A program made the position numbers and the translations under genes. Positions 1 through 36,322 of a stretch of DNA of 36,322 nt are shown piece by piece. Every line of letters starts with the position of its first letter. Position 1 is the stretch's first letter. Under the pieces are notes generated by a model. It was given only the letters and a program-made list of their open reading frames with translations, was not told the DNA's origin and searched no databases. The DNA comes from a virus: positions 1-36,322 of IMG/VR virus record IMGVR_UViG_3300008120_000245, one strand, 5' to 3'.

Positions 1-955
1 TTGTGCACCTGTGGGGCCTACTTCGCCTTGAATACCTTGTACGCCCTGTGAACCTGTAGGACCTACAATACCTTGAATACCTTGAGCACCTGCTGGACCT
101 GTAACACCTTGAATACCTTGAATACCTTGTATGCCTTGGTCACCTGTAGGGCCTGTAACACCTTGAATACCTTGTATTCCTTGCGCACCTGTAGGACCTG
201 TAACGCCCTGAATACCTTGTGCACCTGTTGGGCCGGTATCACCTTGCGTACCTTGAATACCTTGAGCACCTGTAGGGCCTACTTCACCTTGAATACCTTG
301 TGCACCTGTTGGACCTGTAACGCCTTGAACGCCTTGCGCACCTGTAGGACCTGTAACGCCCTGAATACCTTGTATACCCTGAATACCTTGATCGCCAGTA
401 GGGCCTGTAACGCCTTGAATACCTTGAGCACCTGTAGGTCCTGTAACGCCTTGTATGCCCTGAATACCTGTTGGGCCTACTTCACCTTGAATACCTTGTA
501 TACCCTGAATACCTTGAATACCCTGAGAACCTGTTGGTCCTACTTCGCCTTGAATACCTTGAGCACCTGTGGGTCCTGTAACGCCTTGTATGCCTTGTAT
601 GCCTTGAGCACCTGTAGGACCTGTAACACCTTGTATACCTTGTATACCTTGATCACCTGTTGGGCCTACAATACCTTGTATGCCTTGTACGCCTTGAATA
701 CCTTGTACGCCTTGTGGACCTGTTGGCCCTACTTCGCCTTGTGGTCCTGTAGCACCTGTAGGACCTGTAACGCCTTGAATTCCTGTGGGTCCTGTTGGAC
801 CAATTTCACCTTGTGGACCTTGTGGTCCGTCTAATCCGTCTGTACCATTAACACCTGGCTCGCCTTGAGGACCTGGGCCACCTTGAACCCCAGCAGGTCC
901 TTCTACAGATGCTCCTGCTGGGCCTGCTGGACCTGTTGGGCCTGTTGCTCCGTAG
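1..955. repeat. Degenerate tandem repeat encoding collagen-like Gly-X-Y
   Basis: Short units of 9 and 15 bases (on the plus strand, variants of CCTTGAATA and ACCTGTAGG) recur for over 900 bases. They encode GIQG, GPTG and GAQG tripeptide combinations in the fibre gene. The repeat also produces long meaningless open frames on the other strand. Tandem sequence of this type can expand or contract by recombination and change the shaft length. Confidence 0.85.
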
Positions 956-1662
956 CCAATACTTTGACCATCAACAACCAAGAATCCGCCTTGAGCTGAA
1001 ATGGGTGTTCCGCCTAGGTCAATTGTATTAGCAGCAAAGTAACCAGTTTTCCAACGTTTTGTTGGTGAACCAATATCATAAACTTGATCTAATGCAGGAA
1101 TTAAACTACCAGTAATAGCTGCAGGATTAATACCAGGATCGCCTGGATCACCTTTGGGACCTTGAAGTCCTGTACCAACCAAGTGACCTGTTAATTCTTT
1201 GATAACGATCTTTAGACCAACAGGTGGCGCGCTAGAAAAAGTAATATATCCGCTGACTACTGTAAAATCAGTATTGGCATCTTGTGAAATACCGCCGACG
1301 AATACTAAGAAACTTTCAGCAGTTATACCTGGTGTAACTATATATGTAGTGGTGTTGCCGTTACCAGTATAATATCTAGTATTGGCGTTAAAAGCAGTAC
1401 CGCCTGGATTACCATTAACCCAGTTACTGCCGTTATATAATAGTGCCTGTCCGTTGACAGGGCTTGAAACTGTTACATCTGATAAATTATCTAAGCTAAT
1501 ACCAGCTAAGTCTTTAAAAAACTTTACTGAATTATCAGATGCTTTAAAATAAATTCTGCCATCAGCATAATTAATGGCTAACTCGCCATACTCGAGATCA
1601 CTTGTAGCAGGAACTTTACCTACTACCGATGATTTCTTAAGAATAATCTTATTTGTTGCCAT
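1..1662 (-). CDS. Collagen-like phage tail fibre protein (C-terminus beyond the left edge)
   Basis: The frame opens at ATG 1660-1662 and stays open for 554 codons to the window edge, so the C-terminus is missing. The first ~75 residues ([15 protein letters not shown]..., then [15 protein letters not shown]) are a typical fibre N-terminus of the kind that attaches to the virion. A beta-rich stretch follows. From about residue 240 the chain becomes almost unbroken collagen-like Gly-X-Y, dominated by [10 protein letters not shown]-type units. Such regions form trimeric triple-helical shafts in phage fibres, so the receptor-binding tip is probably in the missing part. It is the last gene of the minus-strand tail block in view. 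A hairpin at 1683-1706 separates it from the previous gene, and no strong ribosome binding site is visible. Family role is well supported; the receptor is unknown. Confidence 0.85.
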
Positions 1663-24006: not shown

Positions 24007-25956
24007 TCAGGTTGCTGTGTACTTGTGTGCTGTAACAGCGTTACCTAAGTTAGTGGTAACACGTGTCATACCGGTACGGAGGCTAGCCACCATAACGCGA
24101 CGCTGTGTTTCAACCAATTCTTGGGTATCGATGCGGAGACCGCGCTGGTTACCAACAATAAAGTTGCCTGGGTGCAATGCAATGGCGCCTGCAACACCAG
24201 TACCTGGGGAAGCGAACTCTGCAGAGACCAACACAGGGCTTCCACCGATTTGACCGATTTGACCGGTTAACAATGTAGCTTGTGTACCAACTTGGTTCAT
24301 TGTTTGGAAGGTTGTGTCTTCCAGCAACTGGTAATAAACATCGGTATTAACGATATAGATTACTTCAGATGGGTCGAGACCCCAAGCACCTAAACCTTGA
24401 CGCAATGTGCGCAATTTGGCAACATTCAAACCAGCAGCAACAGTGTTACCGGTAGCAGTGGTGTTAGTAGCCCAGTTTGCCAGTCCTTTAACAGGGTCAG
24501 AACCTGAACCAGCACCTAACAAGAAGGCCTTGTCAACGGCGCGAGCAACACGACGGATCATACCATCACGAATCATTGGCATCAAAGCGATCAAAGAATC
24601 TTCTTCTTCTTCGTATGCTGTATACTCGTTTGTAGCAAGTTTATAAGCATTCAAAGTGATTTCTTTGAAAGCGTGAGTTTGTGTAGCACCAGCAGAGGCA
24701 CCAGCAGCGCCAACGCTAGCAGGAACGGCACCAAAGTCAGCGTTAGTAACCCAAGTTGCTAAACCTGCTTCTGGGTTCACTGGCATGGTCATCACGTTGG
24801 TTTGCATAGCGATGTTGCGGAAAATAGGAGCAACAACTAAGCGACGACGAACTTCATTTTCCATGTTCAATGAAACTTCAAGTTCCCAAGTACCAGTTGT
24901 ACCTGAAGGCTGGTGAGCACCGTACTTTTGTACTAAGTCACGACCAAATTTTGTGCCGTCCAATGACTTACCAGCCATCTTAGCCAACATAACTGCCTTT
25001 TCTTTTTCAGCATAAGACAAACCGTCTTTGGCTTCGGAAAAAGACATTTTTGATTTTGTGATTGCTTCGATTTCAGCAGCTTTTTCTTTCAAAGCAGCTT
25101 CTAAACCAGCGATCACTGTTTTACTAGACTCTTCAGCAGTAGCCAAACGCTTCTCAACTTCGGCCATCAAGCGCTCAGCACCTGTGTCACCAGTAGAGAT
25201 AGAAGCAACAGCGGCTTTAACGCGTGCATCTAATTCGGCTTCGGCTTTTTCAGCAGCGGCTTTTTCGGCCAATGCTTTTGCCTGTGTTTCGGCGATGGCT
25301 TTTGCAGTTTGCTCAGCCGCTTTGCTAGCTGCATCAGCTAACATTTGTTCTAATTGTTTAGGATCCATTTCCCATTCCTTTTTAATTTCGCTGTCTGCTT
25401 CCGTTGAGGATTCTAGCCCTTTAGCTGATTCGCTGTCGGGTGCAAACTGCATTTTGAAAGATTTAAATTCTTCGGCTGTATCAAACGCCTTAGAAAGACT
25501 AAATAGTGTATTTTGATTAGCTGGTACTGACACTACTGAAATTTCATGTAGTTCCAATTCCTTTACCACAAACAGCTCTGCAGCTGAGTTGTACTCCGCA
25601 TCTACGATTCGGAATCCGATACTAAACGCCGTTAACACGCCGTCTTTTACAAGATTGAACACCTCATTGGCTGCTCCAGAGATTCTGGCTTTAATCCATA
25701 ACCCTTTGCCGTCAATTCTATGTTCTACCATCCTACCAACTGGTTCGCTATGGTCATGGTAAGCCAAAATTACTGGATTTTTCAAGTAATTCTGAATACC
25801 TTTTTCCCATACGCTTACAGGAACAACATCACCTTGTCTATCAATATCTGTAGTACTTGCGTACCCTTCAATTGTTATACTGTCTGTTTTTCCGTCGGAG
25901 ATAGTACTCTTGATAAATGAACTGTTTAAAAACAGTACTTTACTTTTGTCTACCAT
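24007..25956 (-). CDS. Prohead protease-scaffold-major capsid protein fusion (HK97 fold)
   Basis: One 649-residue ORF carries three head functions. Residues ~1-165 are an HK97-type prohead serine protease (U35 family): EGYASTTDIDRQGDVV, LAYHDHSEPVG with the catalytic His, LTAFSIGFR with the nucleophile Ser112, and LELHEISVVSVPAN. Residues ~195-315 are an Ala/Glu/Lys coiled coil like the HK97 delta (scaffold) domain. Residues ~330-649 are an HK97-fold capsid protein (VRRRLVVAPIFRNIA, EEEDSLIALMPMIRDGMIRRVARAVD, QLVETQRRVMVASLRTGM). The internal ATG at 25368 (Met197, MDPKQLEQML) has AAGGA about 8 bases upstream, so a separate 453-residue scaffold-capsid product is probable. HK97 itself uses separate genes. 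Confidence 0.9.
   Translation of the reverse strand: MVDKSKVLFLNSSFIKSTISDGKTDSITIEGYASTTDIDRQGDVVPVSVWEKGIQNYLKNPVILAYHDHSEPVGRMVEHRIDGKGLWIKARISGAANEVFNLVKDGVLTAFSIGFRIVDAEYNSAAELFVVKELELHEISVVSVPANQNTLFSLSKAFDTAEEFKSFKMQFAPDSESAKGLESSTEADSEIKKEWEMDPKQLEQMLADAASKAAEQTAKAIAETQAKALAEKAAAEKAEAELDARVKAAVASISTGDTGAERLMAEVEKRLATAEESSKTVIAGLEAALKEKAAEIEAITKSKMSFSEAKDGLSYAEKEKAVMLAKMAGKSLDGTKFGRDLVQKYGAHQPSGTTGTWELEVSLNMENEVRRRLVVAPIFRNIAMQTNVMTMPVNPEAGLATWVTNADFGAVPASVGAAGASAGATQTHAFKEITLNAYKLATNEYTAYEEEEDSLIALMPMIRDGMIRRVARAVDKAFLLGAGSGSDPVKGLANWATNTTATGNTVAAGLNVAKLRTLRQGLGAWGLDPSEVIYIVNTDVYYQLLEDTTFQTMNQVGTQATLLTGQIGQIGGSPVLVSAEFASPGTGVAGAIALHPGNFIVGNQRGLRIDTQELVETQRRVMVASLRTGMTRVTTNLGNAVTAHKYTAT
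25366..25383 (-). promoter_or_regulatory. Internal ribosome binding site and start for scaffold-capsid
   Basis: Within the fusion ORF, AAAAAGGAAT (25374-25383) precedes ATG 25366-25368 in the same frame with normal spacing. The Met begins the scaffold coiled coil exactly at the end of the protease domain linker. This would let the cell make much more capsid than protease from one ORF. Confidence 0.6.
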
Positions 25957-27150: not shown

Positions 27151-27591
27151 TTAAGTGAACTCTGAGAAAAAACTACCAAAGCTTCGTTTAGGGATTGGCG
27201 CTGATTCCACCACATCACCAGTATGTTTTGCACGCTGCGTTTCTATCCAGTGAGCCTGTTTGGGTTCACTGCCAGGACGAGGAGCTTTACCATAAACACT
27301 GTGCAGCGCTACATGATGAGGATTACAAAGGGTGTAAACTTGGTCATATAACTCTACTCGGTGCGTATCAATAAATTCATCTCGCACAGCTAAAATACCG
27401 GCATCTGTTGAAATATCGTAACCCTTGGCTTCAGACCATTTATCTAGGAGTATTGTAACTGAGTGTAAGTGATGCAGTTCTAAGTCTTGCTTAGTGCCGC
27501 AAACATAACACACATCTTTCTTTTCATAGGCCGCCTTAGCCCTGTCGCGAACCCATTTAACTGGTATTCGCTTGTTTGTATTTTTGGCCAT
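27151..27591 (-). CDS. HNH endonuclease, packaging-associated
   Basis: A 146-residue HNH nuclease: CYVCGTKQDLELHHLHSV (first Cys pair and HH), then VYTLCNPHHVALHSVYG (second Cys and HNH helix). HNH proteins next to terminase and portal genes, such as HK97 gp74, take part in head morphogenesis and terminase cleavage of DNA concatemers. Here it lies between the large terminase and portal, under its own strong promoter (27615-27643), and ends nine bases before the portal start. It could be a homing endonuclease, but size and position favour the packaging role. Confidence 0.85.
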   Translation of the reverse strand: MAKNTNKRIPVKWVRDRAKAAYEKKDVCYVCGTKQDLELHHLHSVTILLDKWSEAKGYDISTDAGILAVRDEFIDTHRVELYDQVYTLCNPHHVALHSVYGKAPRPGSEPKQAHWIETQRAKHTGDVVESAPIPKRSFGSFFSEFT

Positions 27592-32077: not shown

Positions 32078-32205
32078 GGTTTTATCCTTTAGTGTTGATT
32101 ATAGCAGTTTAGGGCAATTTAGGCAAGTGTAGATTTTGGCACCTTAGGGTGTTTGAGAATTTTCCTGAAATAGGCCGTGTGGGAGGGTCCCGCGGAGTAG
32201 GGTGT

Positions 32206-32236
32206 ATTATAGTCTAATAACCGCCCCCGTAGTCAA
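32206..32236 (-). promoter_or_regulatory. Late promoter for terS and head genes
   Basis: On the minus strand TTGACT (32231-32236), a 19-base spacer and TATAAT (32206-32211). The long spacer suggests weak or activated transcription. The -35 box abuts the dyad operator, and the arrangement parallels the minus-strand promoters of the three intergenic linkers (18-base spacer). Confidence 0.6.
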
Positions 32237-32253
32237 TAGGGATAAACACCTAT
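32236..32253. promoter_or_regulatory. Dyad operator, copy A (ATAGGGATAAACACCTAT)
   Basis: The 18-base element has complementary ends (ATAGG/CCTAT) and is the core of a ~31-base block (32232-32262, GTCAATAGG...GTTGTATTT) repeated at 33324 and 35231. It lies between divergent promoters, consistent with a repressor or activator site acting on both. Confidence 0.65.
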
Positions 32254-32270
32254 GTTGTATTTACACACAC

Positions 32271-32300
32271 TTGATTTATTCTAGGTTATTCGTGTATAAT
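32271..32300 (+). promoter_or_regulatory. Early promoter, plus strand
   Basis: TTGATT (32271-32276), an 18-base spacer and TATAAT (32295-32300). The bases before the -10 box (GTG) are shared with the promoters at 33386 and 35317. Transcription would start near 32307, about 20 bases before the 47-residue gene. Confidence 0.7.
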
Positions 32301-32325
32301 AGAATACATGATGACAAGGAACACT

Positions 32326-32567: not shown

Positions 32568-32588
32568 ATATTTTTTAAGGAAATGAAA

Positions 32589-32906
32589 ATGAAAACAGTA
32601 AACTACACCCCAGAGCAAACTGCTCGCATGGTTGCCGACTATGAAGCTGGCATGACAGTTGACGCTATCGCTGAAGCATTAGGCAAAACTGTTCGTTCAG
32701 TTGTTGCGAAGCTATCACGTGAAAAGGTTTATGTTGCTAAGGCATACAAAACAAAATCAGGCGAGACACCTATTAAAAAAGATGTTCACGCTGATTTTAT
32801 CGGTGAGGCTTTGGGTTTAACTGAGGCTGATACAGAATCACTCACTAAGGCGAATAAAATTGCTTTGATGAAAATTGTTGACTTTATCAAGGCTGAAAAG
32901 ACCTGA
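32589..32906 (+). CDS. Small putative DNA-binding regulator, paralogue 1
   Basis: ATG 32589 is preferred over 32583 because it gives normal spacing to AAGGAA and matches the start of its paralogue at 35927. The 105-residue protein begins MKTVNYTPEQTARMVADYEAG, then MTVDAIAEALGKTVRSVVAKLSRE, a helix-turn-helix (~20-45) with a strongly basic recognition helix, as in small phage regulators and SANT/GcrA-like domains. The KSGETPIKKDVHADFIGEALGLTEADTESLTKANKIAL tail is also shared. No function is proven, but it is a good candidate to bind the repeated operators. An intrinsic terminator follows. Confidence 0.7.
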   Translation: MKTVNYTPEQTARMVADYEAGMTVDAIAEALGKTVRSVVAKLSREKVYVAKAYKTKSGETPIKKDVHADFIGEALGLTEADTESLTKANKIALMKIVDFIKAEKT

Positions 32907-33121: not shown

Positions 33122-33211
33122 ATGACTGATATAGAATTTTTTAATGTGTGTTTAGGGGTTATTGCATTTATATGCATTAAGGTTGCACTATTGCTTTGGT
33201 TTTCTAAATGA
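33122..33211 (+). CDS. Single-span membrane miniprotein (29 aa)
   Basis: It starts directly after the previous stop (TAAATG) and encodes MTDIEFFNVCLGVIAFICIK then VALLLWFSK, a single hydrophobic helix of about 20 residues with a short acidic start. Its TGA stop (33209-33211) is also the first base triplet of the intergenic linker repeat. Two miniproteins of this type occur within 700 bases. Confidence 0.45.
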   Translation: MTDIEFFNVCLGVIAFICIKVALLLWFSK

Positions 33212-33391
33212 ATACTTTTGTTTGCTAACAGATTTGAATACTCAGGTATTCAGGTCTGCGCCGCAGCGAAGTAAGCGCTAACTTCAGTTTGCGCCAAAAT
33301 TATACCATAATTTTGGAGGCGGTGTCAATAGGTGTAAACACCTATGTTGTATTTTCGCACACATGGTTTTTGGTCGGTTTTTTGTGTATAA
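33209..33391. repeat. Intergenic linker repeat, copy 1 (terminator-promoter-operator module)
   Basis: It starts on the TGA of the 29-aa gene (TGAATACTTTTGTTT). In order it carries a hairpin TTGAATAC/GTATTCA (33234-33252); a GC-rich imperfect palindrome GCGAAGT...ACTTC (33266-33285) absent from the other two linkers but repeated at the right edge of the window; a hairpin CCAAAATTAT/ATAATTTTGG (33294-33316); minus-strand TATAAT (33299-33304) and TTGACA (33323-33328) 18 bases apart; the best dyad operator, ATAGGTGTAAACACCTAT (33328-33345); and the plus-strand -10 box GTGTATAAT (33383-33391). The next gene begins at 33421. Confidence 0.8.
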
Positions 33392-33420
33392 TGGGGACAT
33401 TAACAGAAAAGGTTTACAGA

Positions 33421-33897
33421 ATGGCTAAAATTAAAAAGGTTTCAATTTATGACATGGATGGGACAATCGTTTGTTCTTTGCATAGATATCGCACTATTGT
33501 AGATGAAAATGGTGAGAGAATCGATTTAAATTATTGGAGAGAAAATCAAGATTTAGCCTTGAATGATTCTCTCTTACCATTAGCAGAACAATATAAAAAG
33601 GATTTAAAAGATGAATCGTGTTATGTCATTATTGCTACTGCCCGTGTTCTTAATACCCCTGATTATACATTTATTAATGAGATATTGGGTGAACCTGATT
33701 ATATTATTTCAAGACCTGAGAATTCTAATATCTCAGGTGCTACATTAAAAATTAATGGTTTAGCTAAATTCTTTAATTTGATTACATTTAAAGATGCTGA
33801 ATTTACATTTTATGAAGATAATGTAACATATTTAAAAGCGGTTTGTGATAGATTTAATATAAGGGGTGTATATGTACCAAGTAAACAAGGGCATTAA
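33421..33897 (+). CDS. HAD-superfamily phosphatase
   Basis: ATG 33421 lies after the promoter and an AAAGG site; the open frame upstream of it runs through promoter sequence and is not coding. The 158-residue protein has HAD motifs: I, YDMDGTIV (Asp11, Asp13); II, IIATARV (Thr73); and III/IV, FYEDNVTYL (Glu132, Asp133), with a small helical cap between. It resembles phage 5'-nucleotidase or polynucleotide phosphatase-type HADs. The cap is small, so a large substrate such as a nucleic acid end is possible. It overlaps the next gene by 26 bases. Confidence 0.75.
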   Translation: MAKIKKVSIYDMDGTIVCSLHRYRTIVDENGERIDLNYWRENQDLALNDSLLPLAEQYKKDLKDESCYVIIATARVLNTPDYTFINEILGEPDYIISRPENSNISGATLKINGLAKFFNLITFKDAEFTFYEDNVTYLKAVCDRFNIRGVYVPSKQGH

Positions 33898-34024
33898 TGT
33901 TGATTATGCCGAAACATTAATTAAAGATTTTTTAGCTGAAGGCTATAATCTTTATGATATATCGGAAATAATGCATTTACCAGTAAGACAGATTTTAGAT
34001 ATTTTGATTCGCAAAATAAATTGA
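33872..34024 (+). CDS. Small helix-turn-helix-like protein (50 aa)
   Basis: ATG 33872 follows AGGGG at a good distance and overlaps the end of the HAD gene in another frame. The product (MYQVNKGINVDYAETLIKDF, LAEGYNLYDISEIMHLPVRQ, ILDILIRKIN) looks like a compact three-helix DNA-binding unit: a helix, YDISEIMHLPVRQ as helix-turn-helix, then a basic helix. It may be a small regulator. Its TGA (34022-34024) starts the next linker repeat. Confidence 0.55.
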   Translation: MYQVNKGINVDYAETLIKDFLAEGYNLYDISEIMHLPVRQILDILIRKIN

Positions 34025-34180
34025 ATACTCAGGTTTGCAGAAAAAATTGAATACTCAGGTATTCAATTTTGCGCCAAAATTATATCATATAATTTTGCCC
34101 CGTGTCAAGTTTTTTCGTATAACTTATTTTTTGTGTGTGATTAAAATACCACACCTATTATTTAAAATTTATGGTAAGAT
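34022..34180. repeat. Intergenic linker repeat, copy 2 (operator missing)
   Basis: It begins at the TGA of the 50-aa gene (TGAATACTCAGG). The hairpin TTGAATACTCAGGTATTCAA (34047-34066), the second hairpin CAAAATTATA/TATAATTTTG (34075-34097) and minus-strand TATAAT (34079-34084) and TTGACA (34103-34108) 18 bases apart are all present. Positions 34047-34108 differ from 35174-35235 at only two of 62 bases. After TTGACA the sequence diverges and the dyad operator is absent. An extended -10 (TGG-TAAGAT, 34172-34180) precedes the exonuclease gene. Confidence 0.8.
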
Positions 34181-34205
34181 GCAGGTCTACTAACTGAAAG
34201 CACAC

Positions 34206-34901
34206 ATGGCAAAAAAGCAATACTTTTGTATTCTGGACACAGAAACTACTATGGGCGATACTGTGGCAGATTTTGCCATGATTATCTGTGATCGTGAAGG
34301 TAATATATATAATCAATGCGCTGTTTTAGTTAATGGGCATTATAATACTATGGAATTATTCCATGATAAAAAGGCTAATGATATTTGGGGTTATGAGGGA
34401 TTAATTAAACGCAAAATGGGTTATATTGCCATGTTAGATAATGGCATTAGAATGATTGCATCAGTTAATGCTATTAATAAATGGATTAATCAGGCAATCG
34501 GTAAATATAATCCTACATTAACCGCATATAATCTGCCTTTTGATATTAATAAATGCACTAATACTGGAATTGATTTATCAGGGTTTAATAATAAATTCTG
34601 CTTATGGCAAGCATCGGTAGGTAATATTTGCAAAACTAAAAAATATAAACAATTCTGTTTAGATAATCACGGTTTTAATAATGTTACTAAACATGGCAAT
34701 ATGACTTTCAAAACTAATGCGGAAATGGTTTGTGGTTATATCAATAATAATTTTATTATTGAGCCACATACTGCATTAGAAGATGCAAGGGATTTTGAAT
34801 TACCTATTCTCACGCACATAATCAAAAAACGTAATTGGCAAGATAATATTATTCCATATGATTGGAATAAGTTTCAAGTAAGAGATAATTTTAAGGCATA
34901 A
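34206..34901 (+). CDS. DEDDh 3'-5' exonuclease
   Basis: A 231-residue exonuclease with Exo I ILDTETT (Asp11, Glu13), Exo II AYNLPFDINK (Asp113) and Exo III EPHTALEDARD (His188, Asp193), the DEDDh set of RNase T, DnaQ and many phage exonucleases that trim DNA or RNA 3' ends with two metal ions. All catalytic residues are present. Codon use is markedly AT-ending after the first ~40 codons. GAAAG before ATG 34206 may be the ribosome binding site. Its control region lacks the dyad, so it may be regulated differently from its neighbours. The PQ-loop gene follows one base after the stop. Confidence 0.83.
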   Translation: MAKKQYFCILDTETTMGDTVADFAMIICDREGNIYNQCAVLVNGHYNTMELFHDKKANDIWGYEGLIKRKMGYIAMLDNGIRMIASVNAINKWINQAIGKYNPTLTAYNLPFDINKCTNTGIDLSGFNNKFCLWQASVGNICKTKKYKQFCLDNHGFNNVTKHGNMTFKTNAEMVCGYINNNFIIEPHTALEDARDFELPILTHIIKKRNWQDNIIPYDWNKFQVRDNFKA

Positions 34902-34902
34902 T

Positions 34903-35151
34903 ATGTTAGATAATATTGGTTGGATTGGTTCTATTCTTTTGGCATTTTGTGGATTACCACAGGCAATAGAATCATATAAAACAAAATCCTCTGAGGGATT
35001 AACTTGGGGGTTTATTTCAATGTGGTTTATTGGCGAGATATTCACAATAATATATGTATTCCCTAAAATGGATTTACCATTATTATTTAATTATTCTGCT
35101 AATGTATTATTTTTATCGGTTATTATTTATTATAAAATAAAAAGGAAATGA
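34903..35151 (+). CDS. PQ-loop (SemiSWEET-like) membrane protein
   Basis: An 82-residue protein with three transmembrane helices (~5-22, 33-53, 58-77) and the PQ-loop signature at the end of helix 1, FCGLPQAIESYKTKSSEGLTW (Pro19-Gln20, KSS then GLT). This is the size and pattern of bacterial SemiSWEET transporters, which dimerise to move sugars or related small molecules. It starts one base after the exonuclease stop and shares its promoter. Its stop (35149-35151) opens linker copy 3. Substrate unknown; a phage-encoded transporter of this family is uncommon. Confidence 0.75.
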   Translation: MLDNIGWIGSILLAFCGLPQAIESYKTKSSEGLTWGFISMWFIGEIFTIIYVFPKMDLPLLFNYSANVLFLSVIIYYKIKRK

Positions 35152-35322
35152 ATACTTTTGTTTCCCATAAAAATTGAATACTCAGGTATTCAATTTTGCG
35201 CCAAAATTATAGCATATAATTTTGACCCGTGTCAATAGGGGTAAACACCTATGTTGTATTTTTGCGAATGTGTACTTGTGTATTCAAAAATAGTTTGCAA
35301 AGGTTGGTGAACTGTGTATAAT
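35149..35322. repeat. Intergenic linker repeat, copy 3 (complete)
   Basis: It begins at the TGA of the PQ-loop gene (TGAATACTTTTGTTT). It carries the hairpin TTGAATACTCAGGTATTCAA (35174-35193, flanked by AAAA and TTTT, so terminator-like on both strands), the hairpin CAAAATTATA/TATAATTTTG (35202-35224), minus-strand TATAAT (35206-35211) and TTGACA (35230-35235), the dyad ATAGGGGTAAACACCTAT (35235-35252), and a plus-strand promoter (TTTGCA 35294-35299, 17 bases, TATAAT 35317-35322). Confidence 0.82.
35294..35322 (+). promoter_or_regulatory. Promoter for the SprT-like gene
   Basis: TTTGCA, a 17-base spacer and GTGTATAAT. The -10 ends six bases before ATG 35329, so transcription should begin at the A of the start codon and give a leaderless mRNA. 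Confidence 0.65.
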
Positions 35323-35328
35323 GTGGCT

Positions 35329-35706
35329 ATGGACAGAAAAAAGCTTTTAAATATATTAAATAATCAGACCCTGATTATTTGGGATAATCTGTGCGAGATT
35401 CATCCCCGATTATCTCGCTATAATCCACCGATTATAGAATTAAATGGCAGATTATGGCGTGTTGCTGGATTATGTCATCAAGAATCTAATATTGTCGAAT
35501 TAGGTTATAAATTCTTTGCATATTCTCCCGATTATGCAAATAATATGGCTAAGATTATATTACCTCATGAGATAATCCATCAAGCCGATTATAATCTATT
35601 TGGATTATCAGAAGCAAAATGTGGGCATGGTAATAATTGGAAAATGTTAATGCTACAATATGGATTATCTCCCGATATTCATCATTCAATGGAAATTACA
35701 CGATGA
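35329..35706 (+). CDS. SprT-like zinc metalloprotease
   Basis: ATG 35329 is chosen because the open frame before it overlaps the promoter -10 box. The 125-residue protein has the SprT/Wss1-like core: a helix with HEIIHQADYNLFG (HEIIH at 80-84, zinc ligands and catalytic Glu81) and a following GHGNNWKMLM with the third zinc His (His100). The family cuts DNA-bound or DNA-crosslinked proteins in cellular organisms; the phage role is unknown. The mRNA is probably leaderless. The coding sequence is exceptionally rich in GATTA/TAATC in all codon phases. It overlaps the next ORF as ATGA. Confidence 0.78.
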   Translation: MDRKKLLNILNNQTLIIWDNLCEIHPRLSRYNPPIIELNGRLWRVAGLCHQESNIVELGYKFFAYSPDYANNMAKIILPHEIIHQADYNLFGLSEAKCGHGNNWKMLMLQYGLSPDIHHSMEITR

Positions 35707-35915
35707 TTAATAAAATTTCTTGGGTTGGCACATTATCTAGCATTATCGGTGCATTTATTGTTGCCAGTCAGTTATTCTTTTTGGGATATTGTTTCTTTAT
35801 TATAGGTTCATTATCTTGGTTAATAGTTGGATATTATCGAAAAGATAAATCATTAATTACCCTTAATGGTACATTCTTTTTAGCTAATATTCTTGGTTTA
35901 TATAATTCATTTTGA
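35703..35915 (+). CDS. Small three-helix membrane protein (70 aa)
   Basis: ATG 35703 overlaps the SprT stop (ATGA), so it is probably translated by coupling. MINKISWVGTLSSIIGAFIV begins a hydrophobic helix (~5-22), then LFFLGYCFFIIGSLSWLIVG (~25-44), then a short basic loop YYRKDKS and a last helix (~50-68, ANILGLYNSF). Size and three-span topology resemble the PQ-loop protein 0.6 kb upstream, but no PQ motif is present. It may be a diverged relative or an unrelated small membrane protein. Confidence 0.65.
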   Translation: MINKISWVGTLSSIIGAFIVASQLFFLGYCFFIIGSLSWLIVGYYRKDKSLITLNGTFFLANILGLYNSF

Positions 35916-35926
35916 AAGGAAAATAA

Positions 35927-36247
35927 ATGAAAAGCATTAACTACACCCCTGAGCAAACTCAGAAAATGGTTTCCGATTATCAATCGGGATTATCAGTTGA
36001 GATTATCGCAGATAATCTCGGTAAAACTGTTCGTTCAGTTGTCGCTAAATTATCTCGTGAAAAGGTTTATATTGCAAAAGAATATAAATCTAAAACTGGA
36101 GAAACTCCAGTTAAAAAAGATGTTCACGCAGATGCTATTGGTGCGATTTTGCGATTACCTGAAAATGATATTGAATCATTAACTAAAGCAAATAAAAATG
36201 CTTTAAAAGTGATTTTCGAAGCATTGGCTAATTCAAAGCCTATATAA
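35927..36247 (+). CDS. Small putative DNA-binding regulator, paralogue 2
   Basis: A 106-residue protein with AAAGGAA before ATG 35927. It aligns end to end with the 32589-32906 product: NYTPEQT..MV.DY..G, then GKTVRSVVAKLSREKVY.AK, then K.GETP.KKDVHAD.IG, then SLTKANK.AL. About 60 of ~105 positions are identical. Differences cluster before and after the helix-turn-helix, while the putative recognition helix is unchanged, so both may bind the same site. At the DNA level this copy has shifted to AT-rich synonyms and contains four GATTATC/GATAATC sites, including a perfect inverted pair (35999-36019). A strong terminator follows. Confidence 0.72.
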   Translation: MKSINYTPEQTQKMVSDYQSGLSVEIIADNLGKTVRSVVAKLSREKVYIAKEYKSKTGETPVKKDVHADAIGAILRLPENDIESLTKANKNALKVIFEALANSKPI

Positions 36248-36262
36248 TCAGATAATGATTAT

Positions 36263-36289
36263 AAGCCGATTATTTATAATCGGCTTTTT
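36263..36289 (+). terminator. Intrinsic terminator after paralogue 2
   Basis: AAGCCGATTA (36263-36272) and TAATCGGCTT (36277-36286) form a perfect 10-bp stem with a 4-base loop, followed by a T run (36285-36289). It ends the SprT operon. Confidence 0.88.
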
Positions 36290-36300
36290 ATTATCTCAAA

Positions 36301-36322
36301 GCGAAGTAAGCACTCACTTCGC
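36301..36322. repeat. Hairpin repeat at the right edge, shared with linker 1
   Basis: GCGAAGT and ACTTCGC form a 7-bp stem. The sequence matches the imperfect palindrome at 33266-33285 (GCGAAGTAAGC...ACTTC). It probably opens a further intergenic linker that the window cuts off. Confidence 0.6.

Follow-up and report, generated by a model that had tools for sequence, protein, structure and literature searches.

Repeated linkers with a backward promoter at gene-exchange junctions of distant T5-like phages: possible insulators between accessory genes

In T4-like phages, promoter-early stem-loops (PeSLs), each composed of a promoter and a stem-loop, are repeated between small accessory genes (Arbiol 2010; Comeau 2014; via PMC4503421 and PMC3950731). 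As described in these two citing papers, PeSLs are dense where gene content is shuffled and were proposed to mediate exchange. In E. coli, termination by head-on collision of RNA polymerases (RNAP) is assisted by a hairpin, which lengthens the half-life of the collided complex from ~6 to 150 min (PMC13082048), and collision terminators of convergent E. coli genes were described by Ju 2019 and Wang 2023, as cited in the same paper. Here we analysed a complete virus record of 36,322 bases from IMG/VR (the window), in which a composite linker is repeated between small genes. PeSLs, known here through the citing papers, appear to be the closest known kind, and by this comparison the linkers would be a variant of them and not members.

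The terminase large subunit of the window is 50% identical, and its capsid protein ~36% identical, to those of T5-like Vibrio phages. Judged by protein similarity, the carriers are probably distant T5-like phages, with terminase and capsid closest to T5-like Demerecviridae, and the linker-bearing T5-related group is large and metagenome-only. A DNA similarity search of an annotated phage collection gave no match, and Rfam gave no convincing family. The core pattern of the linker had 0 matches in ~85,000 bacterial and archaeal species genomes, and hence these genomes offered no host or prophage clue. The window linkers sit in a rightward series of small genes, divergent from the gene of the terminase small subunit (terS), and this island adjoins the terminase genes. 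Its linkers and genes are listed below.

33206-33392: linker 1, with direct-repeat families D2-D5
33209-33290, unstranded: left part of linker 1; TGA stop of the small ORF 33123-33211, GAATAC repeats, stem-loop TTTGAATACTCAGGTATTCAGG, second stem-loop GCGAAGT..ACTTC
33291-33328, minus strand: core of linker 1; GCGCC at 33291-33295, -10 TATAAT at 33299-33304, 18-nt spacer in the palindrome, -35 TTGACA at 33323-33328
33328-33392, plus strand: forward module of linker 1; dyad ATAGGTGTAAACACCTAT at 33328-33345, -10 TATAAT ending at 33392, ahead of the gene at 33421
34019-34200: linker 2, with direct-repeat families D2-D5
34022-34070, unstranded: left part of linker 2; TGA stop of F23, direct GAATACTCAGG copy, stem-loop AAAATTGAATAC/GTATTCAATTTT at 34043-34070
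34071-34108, minus strand: core of linker 2; GCGCC, -10 at 34079-34084, N18, -35 at 34103-34108, 12/12 match
34108-34200, plus strand: forward module of linker 2; type AAG-TTTTTT-ATAACTTATTTTTTGTGTGTG, no dyad, weak promoter ahead of the gene at 34206
35146-35328: linker 3, with direct-repeat families D2-D5
35149-35197, unstranded: left part of linker 3; TGA stop of the PQ-loop gene, GAATACTTTTGTTT, stem-loop at 35170-35197
35198-35235, minus strand: core of linker 3; GCGCC, -10 at 35206-35211, N18, -35 at 35230-35235, 12/12 match
35235-35322, plus strand: forward module of linker 3; dyad ATAGGGGTAAACACCTAT at 35235-35252, -10 TATAAT at 35317-35322
36299-36322, unstranded: start of a fourth linker; stem-loop GCGAAGTAAGCACTCACTTCGC, ended by the window end
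32583-32906, plus strand: F0, D5-like DNA-binding protein, copy 1 (PHROG 323, 1.9e-9)
33421-33897, plus strand: F2, HAD/polynucleotide-kinase (PNK)-like protein (PHROG 415, 1.2e-8)
33866-34024, plus strand: F23, 50-52 aa, no assigned function
34206-34901, plus strand: F4, putative DEDDh-type exonuclease, read from the motifs DTET, NLPFD and HTALEDA without a profile match
34903-35151, plus strand: F9, PQ-loop membrane protein (PF04193, 3.3e-12)
35329-35706, plus strand: F5, SprT-like metalloprotease (PF10263, 3.3e-9)
35703-35915, plus strand: F7, DUF6552 protein (PF20189, 6.7e-7)
35927-36247: F0, D5-like DNA-binding protein, copy 2 (D1 repeat, 74% identical)

The core of linker 1 was assigned from its 12/12 promoter match together with pattern and profile matches, and positions 33206-33295 fold with -29.8 kcal/mol. 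The original prediction of linkers at 33209, 34022 and 35149 was well founded, since the pattern GCGCCAAAATTATA-n-TAATTTTG occurs three times against 0 in 100 dinucleotide shuffles, far above chance, and its comparison of positions 34047-34108 with 35174-35235 was exact, at 2 differences in 62 bases. Its count of three is correct for complete copies; the fourth begins at ~36299, and the stem-loop of this fourth linker stands before a full core in the relatives L020, L031, L037, L041 and others. The linker was also thought to open exactly at the upstream stop codon. In the window this is so, with the TGA of TGAATAC at 33209-33211, 34022-34024 and 35149-35151, but only 64 of 362 linkers in relatives overlap the upstream stop in this manner. 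Likewise, the dyad operator described as usual is present in linkers 1 and 3, whereas linker 2 carries another forward module. The divergent terS region also has operator modules (repeat family D2): its positions 32078-32325 hold the linker operator (GTCAATAGGGATAAACACCTATG) and a weaker minus promoter without the GCGCC stem-loop; from its sequence, this region is possibly the ancestral form of the divergent promoter pair of the linker.

TTGACA had been taken as a separate part of the linker in plus-strand order. Instead, it is a minus-strand -35 whose partner -10 lies inside the AT-rich palindrome, so that the two form a single feature, a minus-strand promoter TTGACA-N18-TATAAT with TG ahead of the -10. 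An independent promoter scan of 32.0-36.3 kb found three 12/12 sigma-70 matches, all of them window linkers with -35 starts at 33328, 34108 and 35235 and a spacer of 18, and every other site in this interval scored ≤10. Across linkers the spacer is 18 nt in 391 cases and 17 nt in 66 (457 in total), with one case of 22 nt; spacers of 14-16 and 19-21 nt number zero among the linker promoters counted. GCGCC lies ≤12 nt from the -10 in 384 of the 391 N18 sites, and at N18 the -10 reads TATAAT or TAAAAT in 364 of 386. Moreover, when the -10 stands nearer to GCGCC, the -35 shifts along with it and N18 is held. With sigma-70 hexamers at a spacing within 16-18 nt, the back-facing core is predicted to be a near-consensus sigma-70 promoter, aimed into the stem-loop and the preceding gene. 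This backward promoter is the most constant part of the linker; the forward promoter and the operator are optional and variable.

We collected 409 distinct linkers from 146 IMG/VR sequence stretches of distant T5-like phages. The exact hairpin 20-mer is present in 47 stretches; at least 119 contain the core pattern. Within records as long as 128 kb, the linkers are grouped in a single cluster spanning a few kilobases. From left to right, the order is stem-loop, GCGCC, backward -10, spacer, backward -35 and forward module. A profile search gave 555 forward intergenic matches; at E<1e-3, 507 were in this orientation against 1 in the other, with essentially none within genes, and 256 of 267 linkers lie between co-directional genes. 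The stem-loop is free in sequence and kept in pairing (204 distinct left arms in 339 linkers): its score is ≥8 in 91% of linkers versus 18% of shuffles. It usually ends 0-4 nt from GCGCC, most commonly at 0 nt (172 cases). Selection bias was checked both ways, by picking linkers by hairpin alone or by core alone. The first selection gave a back-facing promoter in 47 of 49 occurrences; the second gave a stem score ≥11 in 65%, compared with 1% of shuffled sequences, 3% of genes and 15% of other intergenic DNA.

The one-for-one tracking of gene ends and orientation also bears on a role of the linkers in replication, as sites of initiation or priming where the backward transcript would serve as R-loop primer. 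A promoter beside an AT-rich palindrome and several copies clustered in one zone would suit such sites, but origins need not follow genes in this manner, and we consider this role extremely improbable.

On the gene side, no U-tract enrichment follows the stem-loop (T-rich tail in 2.4% versus 4.2% of controls), while the minus side shows a slight excess of U-runs (8.8% versus 3.9%); in the clade of the window, the arms of the stem-loop finish with short A/T runs. Compared with the backward promoter, the forward one is weaker and more variable (best score 9.55 versus 8.44 shuffled), and its module is of at least two types, one with a dyad operator. These data bear on the reading of the linkers as a modular promoter-terminator array. 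In its simplest form, upstream transcription would stop at the stem-loop, the following gene would be read from the forward promoter, and the backward promoter would be incidental or else a remnant of a divergent promoter region. The many linkers with a forward promoter and the operator modules shared with the terS region (D2) are in keeping with such a plain cassette. However, the backward promoter, which the original prediction overlooked, is the most conserved part (391 at strict N18) and a relic would decay, and the stem-loop usually has no U-tract. We thus regard the plain cassette as quite unlikely, and the general idea of such arrays in phages is already known from the PeSLs of T4-like phages.

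Like PeSLs as the citing papers describe them, the linkers are intergenically repeated composites of promoter and stem-loop. The likeness extends in part to their setting, a gene-shuffling region with exchange at the element, although other junctions exchange too. In contrast to those descriptions, the linkers occur in distant T5-like and not T4-like phages, their invariant promoter points backwards, their stem-loop has neither the U-tract of an ordinary terminator nor a fixed sequence, and they have a GCGCC start block and, in some forward modules, operators. In the annotation of T5 (AY543070), early-region junctions between small genes of like orientation also combine a terminator with a promoter, but most near-consensus promoters in the T5 stretch scanned are oriented like the genes. 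Neither T5 positions 1-50,000 nor the Vibrio T5-like phage stretches checked contain the linker core. The linkers also differ from mycobacteriophage stoperators, short fixed repressor sites dispersed over a temperate genome: the linker stem-loop varies in sequence and the sites lie in one island.

For the function of the linkers, which we infer from this anatomy, we give about an even chance to an insulator at cassette junctions, in which an opposing RNAP and a stem-loop without U-tract end upstream transcription. Such an element is consistent with a promoter spacing that is strictly kept, an orientation that is essentially fixed and a U-less stem-loop. Each linker would close one gene unit and open the next. 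RNAP loaded at the backward promoter would meet RNAP leaving the upstream gene, and the stem-loop would hold the collided complex and set the RNA 3′ end. The linker would then be a collision-type bidirectional terminator or insulator, and a gene between two linkers would be expressed from its own promoter. The layout of convergent transcription around an RNA hairpin, which is known from the E. coli collision terminators as cited in PMC13082048, is present in the linkers with their predicted promoters. In the E. coli cases both polymerases serve convergent genes, whereas the opposing promoter of the linker serves none, adjoins the hairpin and stands between co-directional genes. Perfect promoters aimed backwards at hundreds of gene junctions, with no gene of their own, are hard to reconcile with ordinary phage regulation. 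The stronger claim, that linkers are purpose-built collision terminators, a portable insulator with a dedicated gene-less backward promoter and a U-tract-less stem-loop, we hold only tentatively, at somewhat below an even chance. If it is true, these linkers make accessory genes plug-and-play throughout a phage lineage. They would be a compact natural test of opposing polymerases as deliberate terminators, and the linker would be a small portable insulator part.

Several features count against the insulator. The stem-loops of the window clade, with their A/T runs, could be weak ordinary terminators, and U-runs are slightly enriched on the minus side. The arms of the AT-rich palindrome covary (8.78 of 10 pairs complementary versus 7.29 when arms are swapped between linkers), and this complementarity exceeds what a promoter alone requires. 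In addition, the insulator leaves the strict GCGCC unaccounted for. The insulator has two main rivals, a short antisense RNA and a nick site of the T5 type.

In the former, the backward promoter would produce a short antisense RNA with a stabilising 5′-terminal stem-loop, which would regulate the upstream gene or act as a small RNA. In most linkers, a few nt at most separate the stem-loop from the predicted start of the minus-strand RNA, and the hairpins of window linkers 2 and 3 are closed by 5-6 U on the minus strand, in line with the mild enrichment of minus-side U-runs. Nevertheless, most stem-loops bear no sequence relation to those of other linkers (204 distinct left arms in 339), which leaves no shared target, most of them have no U-tract, and no Rfam family fits; an antisense RNA is therefore unlikely in our estimation.

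In the latter, a phage nicking endonuclease would cut the minus strand at G/GCGC by the stem-loop, and the nick would drive recombination between linkers. As at the single-chain interruptions of T5, every GCGCC gives PuGCGC on the minus strand, in agreement with the minimal T5 consensus NPu-pGCGCN, and one T5 nick (9748) also stands before a stem-loop. An HNH protein encoded at 27151-27591 on the minus strand, right after the terminase large subunit gene (terL), shares 41% identity with a Vibrio phage 234P1 protein that is annotated as nicking endonuclease and encoded at the same place, and similarity starts cluster at linkers. However, the longer T5 consensus R/GCGCRGG (PMC3517423) is unmet by the base composition upstream of GCGCC, and linkers differ from T5 nick sites in their link to a promoter and their clustering within a single island. 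A nick would also leave the promoter hexamers and their 17-18 nt spacing unexplained, while the GC-rich start region can belong to the promoter. We judge a nick site to be very unlikely. Given the homologue of the 234P1 enzyme, single-strand interruptions may occur in linker phages.

Whatever the linkers do in transcription, genes are gained, lost and exchanged at their junctions. The order terS, F0, F2, F4, F9, F5, F7, F0 is partly kept among relatives, and the content between linkers is highly variable. As originally predicted, the same linker flanks different genes in relatives. The PNK-like F2 has many different families upstream. The slot between F23 and the linker is empty in the window, L014 and L037, and holds F29 in L041, L048, L020 and L015, F38 in L042 and F37 in L039, so that the joint of linker 2 with F23 is an insertion/deletion boundary. 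The joints of this slot coincide with the first linker bases; in the window, L014 and L037, the linker thereby provides the last codon and TGA of F23. Moreover, F7 is almost always directly downstream of F5, and this pair stands before, between or after F2 and F4, depending on the relative.

Breakpoints had been expected at the linkers. Among stretches >90% identical, 50% of the breakpoints where similarity starts lie at a linker, versus 16% for uniform placement, and at intergenic positions linkers account for 62% versus 40%, whereas similarity ends are not above the intergenic baseline. Extra genes were found at a linker junction in 55% of comparisons, and at junctions without a detected linker in 26% (tight) or 40% (wide), where breakpoint and insertion counts are mutually non-independent, genes come from a simple hexamer-based caller and contigs are mostly fragments. 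Insertions without a linker include F16 between F4 and F9 and F13 between promoter and F2. Hence, the idea of interchangeable cassettes stands for content swapped at linkers, but insertion is not confined to them. Homologous recombination between linkers is plausible as a consequence but is not their demonstrated purpose. No integrase-like match for a comparison with integron attC sites was found among the window proteins scanned. With joints resolved to the base, the concept of shuffling cassettes, known from T4-like phages, is extended to T5-like ones.

Several other features of these phages were observed. Many islands have two or more copies of F0 (267 copies over 153 stretches), and this D5-like protein is a candidate binder of the linker dyads. 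In window positions 33900-36322 and the matching 2 kb of L048, L041, L020, L037 and L035, GATTAT/ATAATC is the most frequent 6-mer, in all reading frames; five genes hold 25 of them versus 12.0 in synonymous-codon shuffles (maximum 19 among 500), and two neighbouring genes show no 6-mer excess. Outside the island, positions 1-1662 (minus strand) encode a long protein with collagen-like GPxG/QGIQG repeats, probably a fibre. A single ORF of 649 aa at 24007-25956 (minus strand) matches a head maturation protease in its first half and the major head protein in its second, which are two separate genes in Vibrio phage 234P1. Finally, sigma-54-like sites TGGCACGATTCTTGC, often in tandem, lie past the last linker of the island, just beyond where the window ends (L020 8503, L035 6672, L037 6432, L053 6416 and others), and 29 of the 47 intergenic ones are upstream of gene family F15.
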